From Vicinamibacteraceae bacterium (GTDB lineage: Bacteria; Acidobacteriota; Vicinamibacteria; Vicinamibacterales; JAFNAJ01), in contig JAHDVQ010000018.1 in NCBI GenBank assembly GCA_023384595.1, forward strand, positions 1-42,969: 42,969 bases of DNA, in the 5' to 3' direction. Below the pieces are notes generated by a model that saw nothing but the letters and a program-made list of their open reading frames with translations, was not told the DNA's origin and searched no databases. The position numbers were made by a program, and so were the translations under genes. Positions 30,806-37,549 of this stretch are shown piece by piece (within the stretch, counting starts at the first letter, position 1; the number at the start of each line of letters is the position of its first letter).

Positions 30806-32584
30806 CTACTCCGTCACCTTTACCGTCGCCGTCGCCGGTTCCTCCACGGGCCTCAGCGGACGCTTCTCCGTGGTCGGGAACTCGATGATGAACGTCGTGC
30901 CGTCGTTCACGCGGCTCTCGGCGGCGATGGTCCCGTCCAACTGCTCCACGATCTTCTTGGAAATCGGCAGGCCCAGGCCGAGCCCCCGCCGCTTGGTGGT
31001 CACGAAGTCCTCGAAGATGGCCGACAGCCGCTCGGGCGGGATCCCGCAGCCCGTGTCGGAAATCCTGATGCGTGCGCGCGCCCCCATCTCCGCGGCCTCG
31101 ACACGGATGGTCCCGCCGGGGGCGGTCGCCTGGATGCCGTTCAGGATGAGATTACGGTAGACGCGGCCGAGCGCGAAGACGTCGCCCTCGATGAAGACCG
31201 GCTGCTCGGGCCCGCGGTACTCGAGCGCGACGCCGGCGGCCTCGGCGAATCCGCGCATGCTCTCGACAATGTCCGCCACCGAGCGGCCGACCTCGATCGG
31301 AAACCGCTCGAGCGGGATCGGGCGCGCGAGGTTGCGCAGGTCCTCGAGGACCCGCCGCACGGAGGACAACTCGCGCTCCACCGTCCGCCGGAATGTCTCC
31401 CGGTACTCCTTGTCGTCGTACATCTTCAGCATCAGGCGGCAGTTGTTCCCCACGTTCTGGATGGGGTGCGCGAGATCGTGGACGAGACCCGCCGCGATGC
31501 GCCCGAACATCGCCTGCCGCTCCTGACGCCTGGCCTCGGCCTGCAGCGCGACGAGGCGGTCGGCCATGCTGTTGAAGGCATCGCCCAGTCGGCCCAGCTC
31601 GTCGGTGCGCGCGATGGCGACACGCGTGTCCATCTGGCCCTGCGCCAGCGCCTCGGTGCCGCGCATCAGCGCGCGAACCGGCGTGATGATCGACCGGCCC
31701 CACCAGTAGCCGGCGCCAATGGTCAGCAGCAGCGCGAGCGCGATGGCGACCAGCAACTGCCGCTCGAGGCGCGTCGCCAGCGCGTAGGCCTCGTCGGTGG
31801 GCTGCTCCAGGATGAGCGCCCATGCCAGCGAGGGCAGCGGCACGCCCACCGCCAGCAGCCGCTCGCCCTCGGGGCTGTCGTATTCGGTGGCGCGCGGCGC
31901 GCGCGCCGTCGCCGAGAGCGTGTCCTTCGTGAGCGGGTGCCAGAGCGCATCCTCGCCGCGGGCGATGCGCGACTTCTGGTCGGGATCGCCGTGGGCGATG
32001 AGGCGCCCCGACGGATCGACGAGCAGCGCGTAGCCGCGCGTCCCGACCCGGATGCTGTCGACGAGGCGCCAGATCTCCTCGAGGCGCAGCTCGCCGACGA
32101 GCACGGTCGGGCCGTCGGCGCCCTGGATCCTGACCGCGACGCTCGTGCGCGGCAGCAGGTCGTCGTCGATCTGGATCGGCGCCAGCGCGACGCCCAGGGC
32201 ATCGAACTCACCCAGCGGCGGGGGCGCCGGCACGTCGTCGTTCAGCCGGCTGGTGGCGATGACCTCGCCGGTGAGGGTGTACGCGGTGATCGTCCTGAAT
32301 TCGGGAAACGCCAGCACGTAGCTCCGCAGCACGCGCTCACGCTGCCAGGGCAGGAGCGAGAGGGCTTGCAGCTCGGCGGCCGCCTGCCTCAGTGCGCGGA
32401 CGTGGTGGGCGATCGACTGCTCGATCTGCGAGGCCGCGCGCACCGCGAGCTGTTCGGTTCCGGCAGCGACGGAGGTGCGCGTCGCGCGGCCGAGCGTGCT
32501 CACCGACACCAGTCCGTATGCAACGAGCGGCAGCACCGCCGCCGTGGCCACGAGCATCGCGAGTCGGGCCCTGATGCCGCTCAT
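30806..32584 (-). CDS. Membrane sensor histidine kinase with large extracytoplasmic Cache-like domain
   Basis: A 592-residue kinase. TM1 is at 8-28 and TM2 at 278-297; between them lies a ~240-residue periplasmic domain with double-Cache features (FRTITAYTLTGEVIATS, GYALLVDPSGRLIAHGD). A HAMP domain follows (~298-350), then the phospho-acceptor region GLVHDLAHPIQN (His369) and an HATPase with SDTGCGIP and GLGLGLPISKKIVEQ. The HATPase and the H-box region resemble NtrB/DctB-like kinases, which pair with sigma54 activators. ATG 32584 is used because it forms an ATGA overlap with the stop of the substrate-binding protein gene; an open frame further upstream is a shadow. The nearest candidate partner regulator is at 36149-37549. 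Confidence 0.93.
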   Translation of the reverse strand: MSGIRARLAMLVATAAVLPLVAYGLVSVSTLGRATRTSVAAGTEQLAVRAASQIEQSIAHHVRALRQAAAELQALSLLPWQRERVLRSYVLAFPEFRTITAYTLTGEVIATSRLNDDVPAPPPLGEFDALGVALAPIQIDDDLLPRTSVAVRIQGADGPTVLVGELRLEEIWRLVDSIRVGTRGYALLVDPSGRLIAHGDPDQKSRIARGEDALWHPLTKDTLSATARAPRATEYDSPEGERLLAVGVPLPSLAWALILEQPTDEAYALATRLERQLLVAIALALLLTIGAGYWWGRSIITPVRALMRGTEALAQGQMDTRVAIARTDELGRLGDAFNSMADRLVALQAEARRQERQAMFGRIAAGLVHDLAHPIQNVGNNCRLMLKMYDDKEYRETFRRTVERELSSVRRVLEDLRNLARPIPLERFPIEVGRSVADIVESMRGFAEAAGVALEYRGPEQPVFIEGDVFALGRVYRNLILNGIQATAPGGTIRVEAAEMGARARIRISDTGCGIPPERLSAIFEDFVTTKRRGLGLGLPISKKIVEQLDGTIAAESRVNDGTTFIIEFPTTEKRPLRPVEEPATATVKVTE

Positions 32585-34182
32585 CGCGCCGCGGTCTCCT
32601 GCGGCGCGACACGCCAGAGCGCCACGTTGCTCACGATGTCGCGATCGCCGTCGCCCGCCACCACGAAACGGCGGTCGACGGCGCGGGTGATCCGGCTCCA
32701 GCAAAGGAAGATGCCGGGCGGATCGTCGCCGAGCGCGCGGTCGACCTCGACGAGCGCCCGCTGGACCTCCTCGTCACCTCGCGCGCGCCGCAGCCGATCG
32801 AGCGAGGCGTCGGCGCCGCGATAGCTCGAACGGATCGGCACCGCGCCGTCGGCTTCCGGCGAGTGCCAGAACCAGTACGGCCACGTGAAGCCGTGTCCCG
32901 ACGCGATATCCAGCAGGTAGGCCTCGAACTGACCCGTCGCCAGGCGGCGCGCGAGCGCGGCGCGCGCGACCGGCTCGACGATCATGTCCACCCCGATGTC
33001 GGCGAGCTGCTTCTGGACCACGAGCGCGAGACGCTCGTAGAGGGGGTAGTCGGCGGGGATGAGGCAGGTGAAGCGCAGCCGGCCCGGCGGGCGCATGTCG
33101 GTACCGGTCAGGCGCGTCGGCGGATAGCCGGCGCGGTCGAGCAGCGCGACGGCCAGTGCCGGCTCGTGCACCGGCGGGCGTCGTGCCCGGCCGGCCATGG
33201 CCCAGTGCCGGGGCCAGATGTGCGACGAGGCGGCCTCCCCGCGGCCGCCCAGCGCGCGGTCGATGACGAGCGCGCGATCGATGGCGACGTTGAGCGCCTG
33301 CCTGACGCGCCGGTCGGCAAACGGCGGGTGCGCCAGGTTGAAGCCCACCAGATACGCGTACGGTCTGAGGAACGAGAACTCGCGCGCGTTGGTGCCGGCC
33401 GCGAGGAATGCGGCCGCGTCGGGCGTCGCCTCGTAGAGGAAGTCGATCTCGCTCCGGAGCATCGCGCTCCAGGCGGCGCGAGGCGTGGGGAACGACAGCA
33501 GCACCACACGGTCGATCGACGGATGCCCGCGATGGTAGCCCGCGAAGGCGCGTAGCTCGAGCCGCCCCTCGTCGCGCGTGTCGACCATGAAGGGGCCGGC
33601 CTCCTGGTCGAAGTTGGGCCCGCCCGAGACCCGCACCAGCGCCAGGCCCTCGAGGAGCATCGATGAAGGAGCGGCCAGCGTCAGCGCGAACGTCCTGGGA
33701 CCCGTCGTCTCGACCTTCACGATGTCGCGCAGTCCAGGCGACACCCCCATCGGTCCAGGCGCGCGCGAGGCGTCGACAATCGACGCCACTTCGGTGGCCG
33801 TGACCGCCGAACCATCGTGGAAGGTCAGATTGGGCCTGAGGTGGAATCGCCAGCGGAGACCGTCGCTCGTGACGTCCCACGCCTCGACCAGTCCGGGACC
33901 GACTCGCCCGTCGCGCCCGATCGCGACGAGCGACGCGTGGCCGAGGAGCGCCGCCACGCTGGCGAGCGAGGTATCGCTGCCCCCGTCGGGTGGTTGCGCC
34001 ACGCCGACGCGAAGGGTCACGGGAGATGGCGGCGCCCCGGCGTCACGCTGCGCCTGGCAGGCTCCGGCGAGCGCTCCGGCCAGCATCAGCCCGGCGCACG
34101 CGAGCCTGGCCGCCACAGCCGAGGGTCCGGCGGACGATGCGGCGACCGCCGCGCGACGGAAAAACCAGCGGGGGGTACGCAC
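32581..34182 (-). CDS. Family-5 (oligopeptide/nickel-type) extracellular solute-binding protein, orphan
   Basis: A 533-residue SBP_bac_5 protein that captures oligopeptides or similar ligands outside the cytoplasm. Signatures include LVEAWDVTSDGLRWRFHLRP (in parts), NLTFHDGSAVTATEV and the later FADRRVRQALNVAIDR. The N-terminus ends in LAGALAGAC, an imperfect lipobox, so it is probably a lipoprotein. The first GTG, 34182, lies in the 3' arm of a perfect 10-base inverted repeat; an in-frame GTG at 34116 gives a cleaner lipoprotein signal (20 residues to the Cys) and is a serious alternative. No permease or ABC ATPase is nearby. Instead the stop overlaps the ATG of a sensor kinase, which suggests a sensory rather than transport role. 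Confidence 0.88.
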   Translation of the reverse strand: MRTPRWFFRRAAVAASSAGPSAVAARLACAGLMLAGALAGACQAQRDAGAPPSPVTLRVGVAQPPDGGSDTSLASVAALLGHASLVAIGRDGRVGPGLVEAWDVTSDGLRWRFHLRPNLTFHDGSAVTATEVASIVDASRAPGPMGVSPGLRDIVKVETTGPRTFALTLAAPSSMLLEGLALVRVSGGPNFDQEAGPFMVDTRDEGRLELRAFAGYHRGHPSIDRVVLLSFPTPRAAWSAMLRSEIDFLYEATPDAAAFLAAGTNAREFSFLRPYAYLVGFNLAHPPFADRRVRQALNVAIDRALVIDRALGGRGEAASSHIWPRHWAMAGRARRPPVHEPALAVALLDRAGYPPTRLTGTDMRPPGRLRFTCLIPADYPLYERLALVVQKQLADIGVDMIVEPVARAALARRLATGQFEAYLLDIASGHGFTWPYWFWHSPEADGAVPIRSSYRGADASLDRLRRARGDEEVQRALVEVDRALGDDPPGIFLCWSRITRAVDRRFVVAGDGDRDIVSNVALWRVAPQETAAR

Positions 34183-34250: not shown

Positions 34251-34358
34251 CTATCGGGGCGTCTTCTGGTTCACCGGTTCACTCGGGTAGTCGATGAGCC
34301 ACGGGCATCCGACGGGAGGCCGCGAACTGGACGGGGACCTGACGATGAGAACCTTCAC
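34251..34358 (-). CDS. Candidate RiPP precursor peptide, 35 residues
   Basis: A short frame starting with GTG at 34358, overlapping the TGA of the radical SAM gene in a GTGA junction, and ending TAG at 34251-34253. It begins MKVLIVRSP, has a Ser/Pro/Arg-rich middle, and ends in an aromatic-rich, proline-punctuated segment (GCPWLIDYPSEPVNQ, then KTPR). The C-terminal part contains one each of Cys, Trp and Tyr plus Asp, Asn and Lys, residues commonly modified by SPASM maturases. About 80% of third codon positions are G or C, consistent with real coding. I do not recognise the family. Support is positional: coupling to the maturase and a strong hairpin immediately after. No leader/core cleavage motif such as double glycine is seen. 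Confidence 0.55.
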   Translation of the reverse strand: MKVLIVRSPSSSRPPVGCPWLIDYPSEPVNQKTPR

Positions 34359-35794
34359 GATGCTGCCCCTTTCTGTTGCGCCGCCACTTCCAGGGCGTGC
34401 GCGACGAGCGCCGATTCAAGGCTGGCCTTGTGACACGCCGGCGCGTGCATGTCACCCAGTTCGTGGTGCGCGGCCACCGTGCAGCCGCCGGCACACACCG
34501 GGACGAAGCTGCAGTCGCCGCATCGCTTCCAGGCTTCGAGACGTTCGAAGGCGGCGGCGGTAGCCGCCGCGGCCTCGCGCGCGATGTGCCCGGTGGTCAT
34601 GGCGGCTTCGCCCGCGAAGCCCGGGCAGGCATAGAGGTCGCCCGTGGGGCCGATGGTGTAGGCGTGCCGCTTGTGGATCTCGCAGGGACCCATGTGCAGG
34701 CCGTCGGGCGTCGGGAACCCGCGGCGCTTGATGTCGCGGCGCAGCCCGTCGAGCGCCTCGTCCACGAAGTGACACGAGTCGCACGGAGATGGGGACCGGC
34801 CCCCCGCGGCGAAGCCCGGGCCGGACGCCGTCGCGCAGGCGCCGCCAATCGGACGGCCGTCGGCATCGACGGGCGTGAGCGTCAGCCGTCGTGGCGTGGC
34901 TGGAGCGGCGGGTGCGGTCTGGCGCCCGATGACAGGCTTGAACGACACCTTGGCGATCGACGGTGCGAAGTCCTGCGCGGCGAGGAAGTCCAGCAGCGCG
35001 GGGAAACTCGCGGCCGACTCGGCGTCGAAGTTGCCGCCAATCGTGATCCGGCAGCGGTCGGCCACGGCGGCGATGTTGCGGATGATCCGGTCGAAGGTGC
35101 CCTGGCGGCCGCGGAGGGGGCGCATCCGGTCGTGCGTCGCACGGTCGCCGTCGAGGGTGACCTTCACGCCGTTCAGCCCCAGCGGGGCGAGCCGATCGAC
35201 GACCTCGGGCGAGAGCAACAGCCCGTTGGTGATGATGTTCAGGAGCTGCGTCACGCCGCGGGCGCGCGTGGCGGTCCAGAGCCGCTCGGCGAGCGTGTAG
35301 ACGGCGGGCAGGTTCAGGAGCGGTTCCCCGCCGAAGAAGGTCACGACCAGGCGTTCGGGCGACACGGCGTCGAGCCGCCGTTCGATCCAGTCCGCCACCC
35401 GCGCGGCCGTTTCGACCGACATGCGCGCGGCGTGGGCGTTGTGGTCGCCGTGATCGCCCTGGATGCAGTAGTCGCAGGCGAAGTTGCACTGCAGGGTGGT
35501 GAGCACGGTGACTCGCAGCTCGGTGCTGTCGTCACGGAAGGCCGCGAAGTGAGCCTCGAGCCGCGCCGCGTCGGCTTCGGTCCCCGGGGTGAGAAACCCG
35601 TGGGCCTCGAGCGCGGCGAGGGCGTCGCGCTCCTCGGCCCTCAACTGGTCGGCTTCGACCGACCCGGACGTGACCCGGTCGACGAGAGCCACGACGTCCG
35701 GCGAGACGAGGGCCTCGGCGTCGGTCAGCGTGTTCATGAGGAACACGGCGTCGCCCTCGAGGGGCACCGCGACGGTGAACCGGGATCTCTGCAT
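34355..35794 (-). CDS. Radical SAM/SPASM peptide maturase
   Basis: A 479-residue enzyme that uses reductive cleavage of SAM to modify a peptide. The N-terminal ~90 residues (FTVAVPLEGDAVFLMNTLTDAEALVS...) look like the PqqD/RRE-type recognition region of such maturases. The [4Fe-4S] motif CNFACDYC (Cys103, 107, 110) follows, then FFGGEPLLN and NIITNGLLLS in the TIM barrel. The C-terminal SPASM domain has CGDCSFVPVCAGGC (Cys425, 428, 434, 438) and a later Cys454; additional Cys residues (CDSC, GPCEIHKRH, YACPGF) fit auxiliary clusters. ATG 35794 is preferred over 35872 because a sigma54-type promoter at 35849-35863 would place transcription start between them. The gene is followed without a gap by the 35-residue ORF. 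Confidence 0.92.
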   Translation of the reverse strand: MQRSRFTVAVPLEGDAVFLMNTLTDAEALVSPDVVALVDRVTSGSVEADQLRAEERDALAALEAHGFLTPGTEADAARLEAHFAAFRDDSTELRVTVLTTLQCNFACDYCIQGDHGDHNAHAARMSVETAARVADWIERRLDAVSPERLVVTFFGGEPLLNLPAVYTLAERLWTATRARGVTQLLNIITNGLLLSPEVVDRLAPLGLNGVKVTLDGDRATHDRMRPLRGRQGTFDRIIRNIAAVADRCRITIGGNFDAESAASFPALLDFLAAQDFAPSIAKVSFKPVIGRQTAPAAPATPRRLTLTPVDADGRPIGGACATASGPGFAAGGRSPSPCDSCHFVDEALDGLRRDIKRRGFPTPDGLHMGPCEIHKRHAYTIGPTGDLYACPGFAGEAAMTTGHIAREAAAATAAAFERLEAWKRCGDCSFVPVCAGGCTVAAHHELGDMHAPACHKASLESALVAHALEVAAQQKGAAS

Positions 35795-35848
35795 GGGGCG
35801 CCTGTCGATGTCGCGTCCGGCCCGCGAGCCGGCGCACGCGCAGGGTGA

Positions 35849-35863
35849 GCAATCGACGTTCCG
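35849..35863 (-). promoter_or_regulatory. Sigma54-type (-24/-12) promoter of the maturase operon
   Basis: On the minus strand CGGAACG, four bases, then TTGCT reproduces the -24/-12 pattern: GG at 35862-35861 and GC at 35850-35849, exactly ten bases apart, differing from TGGCACG-N4-TTGC at two positions. Transcription should start near 35838, about 43 bases before the maturase ATG. The gene immediately upstream encodes a sigma54-dependent activator. Confidence 0.65.
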
Positions 35864-36148
35864 ATGCGGCACTGTCGGATTTCCGACTGCACAGCCCGCA
35901 CAGCCCCGCCGATTGCGCGCCTGTTCGCAGCGATCTCAATCGGCAGAGGCTGGGAATCCTTGAGCTAGGACCCTAGAATTGGTGTGACAGATTATGCAAT
36001 CGAGTGGCGGGCCGAAGGTGGCAGAAAATCCGACATCACGTGTGCGGAGTGTGCGGAGGGTCGAACTGCCATCCCCCCTCTGTCGGGAGGCTGACGCTTC
36101 GCGCGACCTCGAGTCGAGCCGGGTCGGCGCCTTGGGGCAGAACGGAAC
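35864..36148. promoter_or_regulatory. Upstream control region between NtrC-type regulator and maturase
   Basis: This is most of the only gap longer than 300 bases in the window (35795-36148). It holds a perfect inverted repeat GTCGGA-TT-TCCGAC (35874-35887), tandem GCACAGCCC (35889-35906), CTAGG-AC-CCTAG (35965-35976), a TAGAAT on the plus strand (35974-35979) and tandem TGTGCGGAG (36041-36058). The heptamer TGTGCGG/CCGCACA occurs three times (36041, 36050, and inverted at 35896). Such repeats 35-200 bases upstream of a sigma54 promoter are candidate enhancer sites. No convincing gene is present. Confidence 0.5.
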
Positions 36149-37549
36149 TCAGCTCTGGCCCTGGCCGCCGTATTCGCGCAGGCGGCGGGCCACCTCGCGG
36201 ATGTCGAGGCGCGCCATGCGGTGCTTCAGGGTCGAGAGCGGGATGCCCAGGTCGCGAGCCGTCGCCGTGACGCTCCAGTCGCAGCGCTCGAGCGCGCGGA
36301 TGATGAACGTGCGCTCGAAGGCCGCCATGGCCCGGTCGAGCACGCTCGACTCGTCGTCGGTCGCCGTGGCACGCGCAATCTGCAGTTCGACGGGGATGTC
36401 CTCGAGGTCGATGTGCCCGCTCTCGTTGATGGCCACGAGCCGCTCGATGAGGTTTTCGAGCTCGCGCACGTTCCCGGGCCACCAGTAGTCCTCGAGCACC
36501 TTCAGCGCGGCCTCCGACACGCCGGAGATCGGCCGGCGGAACCGGATGCTGTAGCGTCGGACGAAGAAGTCGACGAGCTCCGCAATGTCCTCGACGCGTT
36601 CCCTGAGCGGCGGCATCCGCACCGGAATCACGTTGATGCGGTAGTACAGGTCCTCGCGGAACCGGCCCTCGCGCACGGCGCGATCGAGATCGACGTTGGT
36701 GGCGCAGATCAGGCGGAAGTCGGTCCGGATGGCCTTGCGGCCGCCCACGCGCTCGATCTCGCCCTCCTGGATCGCGCGCAGCAGCTTCGACTGCAGGTCG
36801 GTCCTGAGGTCGCCAATCTCGTCGAGGAAGAGCGTCCCGCCCGAGGCGAGCTCGAACTTGCCGACCTGCTGGCGCACGGCCCCCGTGAACGCACCCCGCT
36901 CGTGTCCGAAGAGCGCGCTCTCGGTGAGCTCGGACGGGATGGCCGACAGGTTCACCGGAATGAACGGCCCGCTGCGGCGGGGCGACTCGCGGTGGATCAT
37001 CCGTGCCAGCAGCTCCTTGCCCGTGCCGCTCTCCCCGAGCACGAGCACCGTCGCCGACAGGCCCGCCACCTTGTGCATCAACTCGAGGGCCGCCCGGATC
37101 GCGGGGCTCGGTCCCGCCACGAACTCGCGGTCGTCTTCGGCCACCTGCGCCTCGAGCGCCTGCACGCGTCGATTCAGATCCTGGCGCTCGCTCGCCTTCG
37201 AGACCAGCGACCTGAGCGCGTCGTACTCGAAGTCCTTCGTGATGTAGTGGTAGGCGCCGAATTTCATGGCCTGGACGGCCGTCTCCACCTCGCTCACCGC
37301 CGAGATGACAATCACCTCGATCTGCGGCGCCTGGTCCTTGACGATCTTGAGCATCTCGAGGCCGTTCATCCCCGGCAGGCGCACGTCGAGCAGCATCAGG
37401 TCCACGCGCTCGTGCTTGACGACGGGGAGGGCCGCCTCGGCGCTGGCCGCGGCCACCACCTGGTAGTCGTGGCGCAGGATGGCCGTCAGCGTGTCGCGCA
37501 TCCCCTCATCGTCGTCGACGATGAGGATGGTCTTGGCGGGGGTGGTCAT
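36149..37549 (-). CDS. NtrC-family sigma54-dependent response regulator
   Basis: A 466-residue activator. The receiver domain has VDDDEG and phospho-acceptor Asp55 (LMLLDVRLPG), with Lys at YITKDF. The central AAA+ domain has Walker A GESGTGKE (172-179), the sigma54-contacting GAFTGA loop intact at 219-224, Walker B GGTLFLDEIGDL and RFREDLYYRINVIPVRMPPLRER. The C-terminus has a Fis-type helix-turn-helix (WSVTATARDLGIPLSTLKHRM). ATG 37549 starts the protein at MTTPAKTILIVDDDE; the open frame continues far upstream, antisense to lpd and the E2 gene, and is not coding there. A TAGAAT box lies 20 bases before the ATG. It is the natural partner for the kinase at 30806-32584. Confidence 0.95.
   Translation of the reverse strand: MTTPAKTILIVDDDEGMRDTLTAILRHDYQVVAAASAEAALPVVKHERVDLMLLDVRLPGMNGLEMLKIVKDQAPQIEVIVISAVSEVETAVQAMKFGAYHYITKDFEYDALRSLVSKASERQDLNRRVQALEAQVAEDDREFVAGPSPAIRAALELMHKVAGLSATVLVLGESGTGKELLARMIHRESPRRSGPFIPVNLSAIPSELTESALFGHERGAFTGAVRQQVGKFELASGGTLFLDEIGDLRTDLQSKLLRAIQEGEIERVGGRKAIRTDFRLICATNVDLDRAVREGRFREDLYYRINVIPVRMPPLRERVEDIAELVDFFVRRYSIRFRRPISGVSEAALKVLEDYWWPGNVRELENLIERLVAINESGHIDLEDIPVELQIARATATDDESSVLDRAMAAFERTFIIRALERCDWSVTATARDLGIPLSTLKHRMARLDIREVARRLREYGGQGQS

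Follow-up and report, generated by a model that had tools for sequence, protein, structure and literature searches.

The element considered here is a short open reading frame (ORF) with its surrounding operon in a 42,969-nucleotide stretch of DNA (the window), positions 1 to 42,969 of contig JAHDVQ010000018.1 from a Vicinamibacteraceae bacterium (GenBank assembly GCA_023384595.1). A sequence-only reading of the window had proposed that an unannotated 35-residue ORF, overlapping the stop codon of a radical S-adenosylmethionine (SAM) maturase gene, encodes the substrate of that maturase. All of our conclusions are based on sequence and one predicted structure. The two genes in question are as follows.

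34251 to 34358, minus strand: precursor peptide gene, 35 amino acids (conserved in 58 of 60 loci; supported by a jackknife hidden Markov model [HMM], by fewer nonsynonymous than synonymous differences, and by HMM matches at maturase loci only)
34355 to 35794, minus strand: radical SAM/SPASM maturase with an N-terminal domain resembling the recognition element (RRE) of ribosomally synthesized and posttranslationally modified peptides (RiPPs), ATG at 35794 (Pfam, NCBIfam, alignment, and a model matching the CteB fold)

The ORF at 34251 to 34358 was found as described, on the minus strand, with a GTG start, a TAG stop, and the 35-residue product MKVLIVRSPSSSRPPVGCPWLIDYPSEPVNQKTPR, in which the leader-like strand is MKVLIV and the core starts at Cys18 (CPWLID). 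A Shine-Dalgarno-like AAAGGGG lies upstream of the start. The GTG at 34358 shares bases with the maturase TGA (34355 to 34357) in the GTGA overlap that had been noted, and the third-position GC content, given earlier as about 80%, was 0.80. The same 4-base overlap was found in 8 of 53 family members, the others as ATGA. The sequence-only reading had also singled out a hairpin after the stop codon. A GC-rich stem does exist 3' of the peptide stop; its folding energy was near the expectation from composition (z of 0.2 for one segment and -1.9 for another, compared with shuffles), and no terminator-like site or T-run was found after the stop. The hairpin was therefore rejected as a regulatory element.

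Two genome collections yielded about 85 loci with an orthologous maturase, some genomes being present twice, and the DNA behind each maturase stop was read for the 60 distinct loci, which belong to the Vicinamibacterales. A homologous ORF of about 30 residues (class A) was present behind the maturase in 58 of them. Alignment of the 53 different peptides, typically 29 to 33 residues long, gave the consensus MKITVVKKAxxxxKPxxxCPWxxDxPPxxxx, whose Cys was invariant (53/53) and was the only Cys in 49 peptides. The position after this Cys was Pro in 43 peptides, the second was Trp in 31 and Phe in 10, and the fourth was mostly Ile or Val; the fifth was acidic in 48 (Asp in 34, Glu in 14), the rest having Thr, Ser, Ala, or Cys. 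The remainder of the core varied between genera. Conservation of WLIDYP-type residues, which had been anticipated from the window alone, held among close relatives such as SCPWLIDYPSEP: CPWLIDYPSEP was kept in MSIRIVKSGSQARPPLSCPWLIDYPSEPARDKK (loci L021 and L072) and CPWLIDVP in MQVRIVKKGSRNRPVGCPWLIDVPHESTEKK (L003) and MKVEVVQKARGPVRPLGCPWLIDVPPEGEQ (L005), these being the nearest relatives of the window peptide. Across the family, the hallmark was instead the Cys with Asp or Glu five residues on.

Further support came from a jackknife HMM, i.e., the family model trained after exclusion of the window peptide and the three relatives of its own family, which made the test free of circularity. 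The window ORF ranked first among 738 six-frame fragments of the window (E value of 1.8e-6; runner-up, 0.88). When 60 genomes were compared, matches to the peptide HMM at an E value below 1e-7 were present in all 27 that have a strong maturase orthologue, always at the maturase locus, and absent from the remaining 33. Since related genomes are not independent, this co-occurrence is a strong pattern and not a probability. No extra precursor copies were found elsewhere in the genomes, the next match beyond the maturase loci having an E value of 0.03, and the roughly 1.2 kb flanking each side of the more distant maturases (L098, L099, L100, and L088) showed no similar peptide. For pooled pairs with at least 55% amino acid identity, the proportion of nonsynonymous differences (pN) was 0.253 against 0.543 for synonymous differences (pS); for the window and L021 the values were 0.27 and 0.67. 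Selection on the peptide is thus purifying by this measure. The view that no gene exists here, or that its product is no substrate of the maturase, appears very improbable: no family model matched in NCBIfam or Pfam beyond weak AgrD, methanobactin, and BssB_TutG matches, which would favor such a view, and the jackknife HMM, the co-occurrence, and the selection all contradict it. Judged by its conservation, the overlooked 35-residue ORF is a real gene. Because 58 of 60 loci retain an unbroken frame that shares the leader and the Cys core, with synonymous changes in excess, it is also very probably the genuine precursor of the adjacent maturase, and the conservation beside homologous maturases on which the sequence-only reading had staked its proposal was borne out.

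A second class of peptide (class B; PWLVD, no Cys) was present in addition in eleven loci (L004, L008, L009, L011, L033, L035, L038, L041, L051, L054, and L084), no more than 600 nucleotides past the maturase stop and mostly preceding class A. Tandem class A copies occurred in several loci, with a maximum of four (L035). In that locus, 143 to 720 nucleotides after the maturase stop, the four class A genes are near identical and about 160 bp apart, with class B before them. In L074, the class A frame directly after the maturase stop may be a decayed copy or an assembly error.

The maturase carries the Pfam Radical_SAM domain, and its alignment showed invariant C103, C107, and C110 (the radical SAM CxxxCxxC motif) together with invariant C-terminal (SPASM) cysteines. 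Its best NCBIfam match was the geopeptide maturase model TIGR04280, yet at 244.8 bits it fell below the cutoff of 400; no paper on "geopeptide" with radical SAM was found among open-licence papers. Next came the TIGR04463, CefB, FlmE/OhkG, and PapB models, each under its cutoff. CteB was the nearest solved structure both by sequence (5wgg, top PDB match; E value of 9.2e-17) and by fold. The predicted model of the maturase had a mean predicted local distance difference test score of 79.7, about 93 over the first 90 residues and low near the radical SAM Cys motif and at residues 292 to 342. It matched CteB (5why_B) over residues 4 to 472, including the RRE, with a Z score of 24.7 and a root mean square deviation of 4.3 over 389 residues; TigE (8vpo) tied with CteB in this comparison. 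In the model, the N-terminal strands and helices of the maturase match the RRE part of CteB, giving a predicted architecture of RRE, radical SAM, and SPASM domains in which leader binding is expected. The leader binds the CteB RRE as a strand (PMC8326336), and the strand-like MKITVVKK of the family would suit the same role. With a short precursor beside the maturase in 58 of 60 loci, the 27/27 versus 0/33 distribution among genomes, and these maturase domains, the locus is, by its sequence features, very probably one for a RiPP modified by a radical SAM enzyme.

The likeliest modification appears to be a thioether at the invariant Cys. In CteA, the bridge joins Cys32 and Thr37 (PMC8326336), the same spacing as the Cys-X4-Asp/Glu of the family, and the maturase is near CteB. 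PapB accepts Cys-Xn-Asp with n from 0 to 6 (PMC9413430), and the single Cys-X4-Asp/Glu here resembles the possible Cys-Xn-Asp/Glu crosslink target of the PapA-PapB (freyrasin) system, although the PapB model scored 118 against a cutoff of 340. For a ranthipeptide assignment, which calls for a thioether from Cys to a non-alpha carbon, the support comes from the Cys-X4-Asp/Glu spacing. The locus resembles SCIFF/ranthipeptide CteA-CteB in the RRE, radical SAM, and SPASM domains, in the strand-like leader, and in a Cys and acceptor five residues apart. It differs in that the maturase scored 98.7 bits against the SCIFF cutoff of 425 (TIGR03974) and in that a peptide of 30 residues with one Cys in 49 of 53 members stands in place of six Cys in 45 residues. 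Moreover, unlike CteA-CteB, it was confined, in the genomes searched, to one order of Acidobacteriota, where it lies in a sensor operon. TigE, equal in fold closeness, performs other chemistry, and class B has no Cys, so the bond type is only a proposal.

The sensor operon and its sigma-54 promoter were additions beyond the sequence-only reading. The further features are as follows.

30806 to 32584, minus strand: histidine kinase with Cache-like sensor and HAMP domains (Pfam, Cache below cutoff; synteny and co-occurrence)
32581 to 34182, minus strand: SBP_bac_5 solute-binding protein (SBP), a probable lipoprotein with no adjoining permease (Pfam, synteny, and N termini of relatives)
35848 to 35863, minus strand: sigma-54 type -24/-12 promoter CGGAACGTCGATTGCT (strict pattern enriched upstream; rpoN in genome)
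36149 to 37540, minus strand: NtrC-type response regulator and sigma-54 activator, with receiver, AAA+, and Fis helix-turn-helix domains (Pfam, NCBIfam, and synteny)

The order regulator, maturase, peptide, SBP_bac_5, histidine kinase was kept in nearly all loci with enough flanking sequence, with divergent lpdA/odhB before the regulator and, after the kinase, HU on the other strand and then QueF. Among 396 genomes of the phylum, the maturase was found only in Vicinamibacterales, and the locus was vertically inherited, one per genome, across the order. The kinase was present in 27 of 60 genomes. Its occurrence without the maturase in genomes G014 and G039 was rejected as a sign of independence, the kinase being at a contig edge in both. 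In most relatives, the signal-like N terminus of the SBP stops close to a Cys, and the SBP was the fastest-changing protein (mean distance of 0.635, compared with 0.459 for the kinase, 0.382 for the maturase, and 0.285 for the regulator). The peptide core covaried most with the SBP once the other proteins were controlled for (partial r = 0.215; label-permutation P = 0.001; no phylogenetic correction).

The matches of the SBP bear on a first alternative, in which the modified peptide binds metal via its Cys and acidic residues, as a metallophore or metal sensor, and the SBP and kinase sense the metal-peptide complex. The nearest NCBIfam models of the SBP were nickel binding (best, NikA at 79 bits, below cutoff), the metallophore-binding CntA model matched as well, and the peptide has one Cys beside conserved acidic residues. 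Eight peptides also matched the Pfam methanobactin model, but weakly (best E value, 0.03), and the methanobactin enzymes are of a different kind. As the conserved locus has no importer or TonB receptor and residues other than the single Cys are variable, this alternative seems unlikely, and it is less likely than a RiPP signal.

The inheritance pattern bears on two further alternatives. One vertically inherited locus per genome, order-wide and with no exporter, would fit a peptide-derived cofactor or other intracellular product, like PQQ from PqqA, with the sensor pair only controlling production in response to another ligand. However, the core is variable except for the Cys and the acidic residue at +5, tandem copies and a second peptide class would be unusual for a cofactor, and no partner oxidoreductase is in the locus; we consider this improbable. 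An antimicrobial RiPP induced through the sensor pair is more improbable still. Radical SAM RiPPs are often antimicrobial (PMC8326336) and the core differs between genera, but the locus holds no immunity or export gene, and order-wide vertical inheritance with a fixed gene order would be unusual for a bacteriocin.

The promoter was identified by scanning the 450 bases upstream of the maturase for a strict -24/-12 pattern (YGGMAYN5TTGCW). Of 62 distinct loci, 35 had the pattern there, and neither their reverse complements nor any of 926 control windows contained it; the site at 35848 to 35863 is one of 23 strict-pattern sites in the 4.8-Mb genome, in which rpoN was also found. With a -24/-12 element, an enhancer-binding activator, and rpoN, the operon is a sigma-54-controlled one as judged from these elements, and we infer from its position that the NtrC-type regulator acts on the maturase promoter. 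A palindrome, CGGCCAAN4TTGGCCG, is a candidate enhancer, its core dyad being found in about 20 of the 62 upstream regions and in at most 3 in shuffles; it was not in the window, and the genes beside its other genomic sites are of mixed kinds.

Together, these results are best explained by a RiPP signal that is produced from a sigma-54-controlled operon and detected by products of that operon, an explanation that we regard as evenly poised between right and wrong. It is preferred because the peptide, maturase, SBP, kinase, regulator, and promoter are kept together over an order, and because the core varies and is duplicated in some loci and the SBP has no permease. The ORF at 34251 to 34358 would be the precursor of a single-core RiPP whose N-terminal strand (MKVLIV; MKITVVKK in the family) is bound by the RRE-like domain of the maturase encoded next to it. 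The maturase would then most likely form a thioether between the invariant Cys and the fifth residue after it (Asp in the window), and the processed peptide would leave the cell by some export route. The orphan solute-binding lipoprotein would capture it, the histidine kinase would report the captured peptide to the NtrC-type regulator, and the regulator would drive the sigma-54 promoter of the maturase-peptide operon. The outcome would be a self-reinforcing or density-sensing peptide circuit. SCIFF ranthipeptides have been listed as related to quorum sensing in clostridia (PMC8326336).

Several observations weigh against this explanation. Two loci lack an intact peptide (two in-frame stops in L074 and a lost frame in L039), and the five members without Asp or Glu at +5, like the Cys-less class B, make the bond type uncertain. 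The core-SBP partial correlation is small and carries no phylogenetic correction, and the models nearest the SBP are nickel binding. Finally, no exporter, leader peptidase, or permease was found in the conserved locus, so that secretion is assumed.

Agr (AgrD/AgrB/AgrC/AgrA), in which a small Cys peptide, a kinase, and a regulator likewise share one locus, served as a lead for how the circuit might work. The AgrD model matched one member weakly (E value of 0.0015 among 53 scanned), and AgrB (PF04647) had no match in the genome, the same search being silent over its cutoff in control genomes too. Unlike Agr, the locus has a radical SAM enzyme and an SBP instead of AgrB, and its regulator is NtrC type. 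A Gram-negative agr-like circuit ancestral to the order, in which a thioether peptide made by the radical SAM enzyme is the pheromone, the SBP lipoprotein and the kinase form the receptor, and the sigma-54 activator completes the feedback on the peptide operon, is a tentative and rather doubtful extension. The roles of radical SAM peptides are mostly unknown though such peptides are plentiful in genomes, and here, throughout an order, a precursor family that has no model in Pfam or NCBIfam occurs together with its own sensor pair and a sigma-54 promoter, an arrangement suggestive of a modified peptide that signals back to the operon encoding it. The purpose of the peptide is directly testable, since one locus supplies a candidate receptor, a candidate regulator, and a promoter usable as a reporter. 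The host order consists of abundant, little-cultured soil bacteria, and the locus is probably also present in the cultured Luteitalea lineage. No publication on this locus was found among open-licence papers.

Some minor observations concern the promoter region and the palindrome. The gap between regulator and maturase holds, on the plus strand opposite these genes (35984 to 36094), a 36-residue GTG ORF with two Cys (SDITCAECAEG) and no Pfam match. An inverted repeat, GTCGGA-AA-TCCGAC (35874 to 35887), precedes the sigma-54 site by a few bases; relatives showed no such shared dyad. Elsewhere, the palindrome separated a subtilase gene from an SBP(/permease) operon (L130 and L131) and also lay near genes for TIG- and PEGA-domain proteins (L127 and L128). 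At L124 (G000 C391:48934-49298), two tandem CGGCCAAGATCTTGGCCG palindromes lie about 310 bp upstream of a sigma-54-like site, and the product of the gene behind this site has an end that resembles a PEP-CTERM protein.
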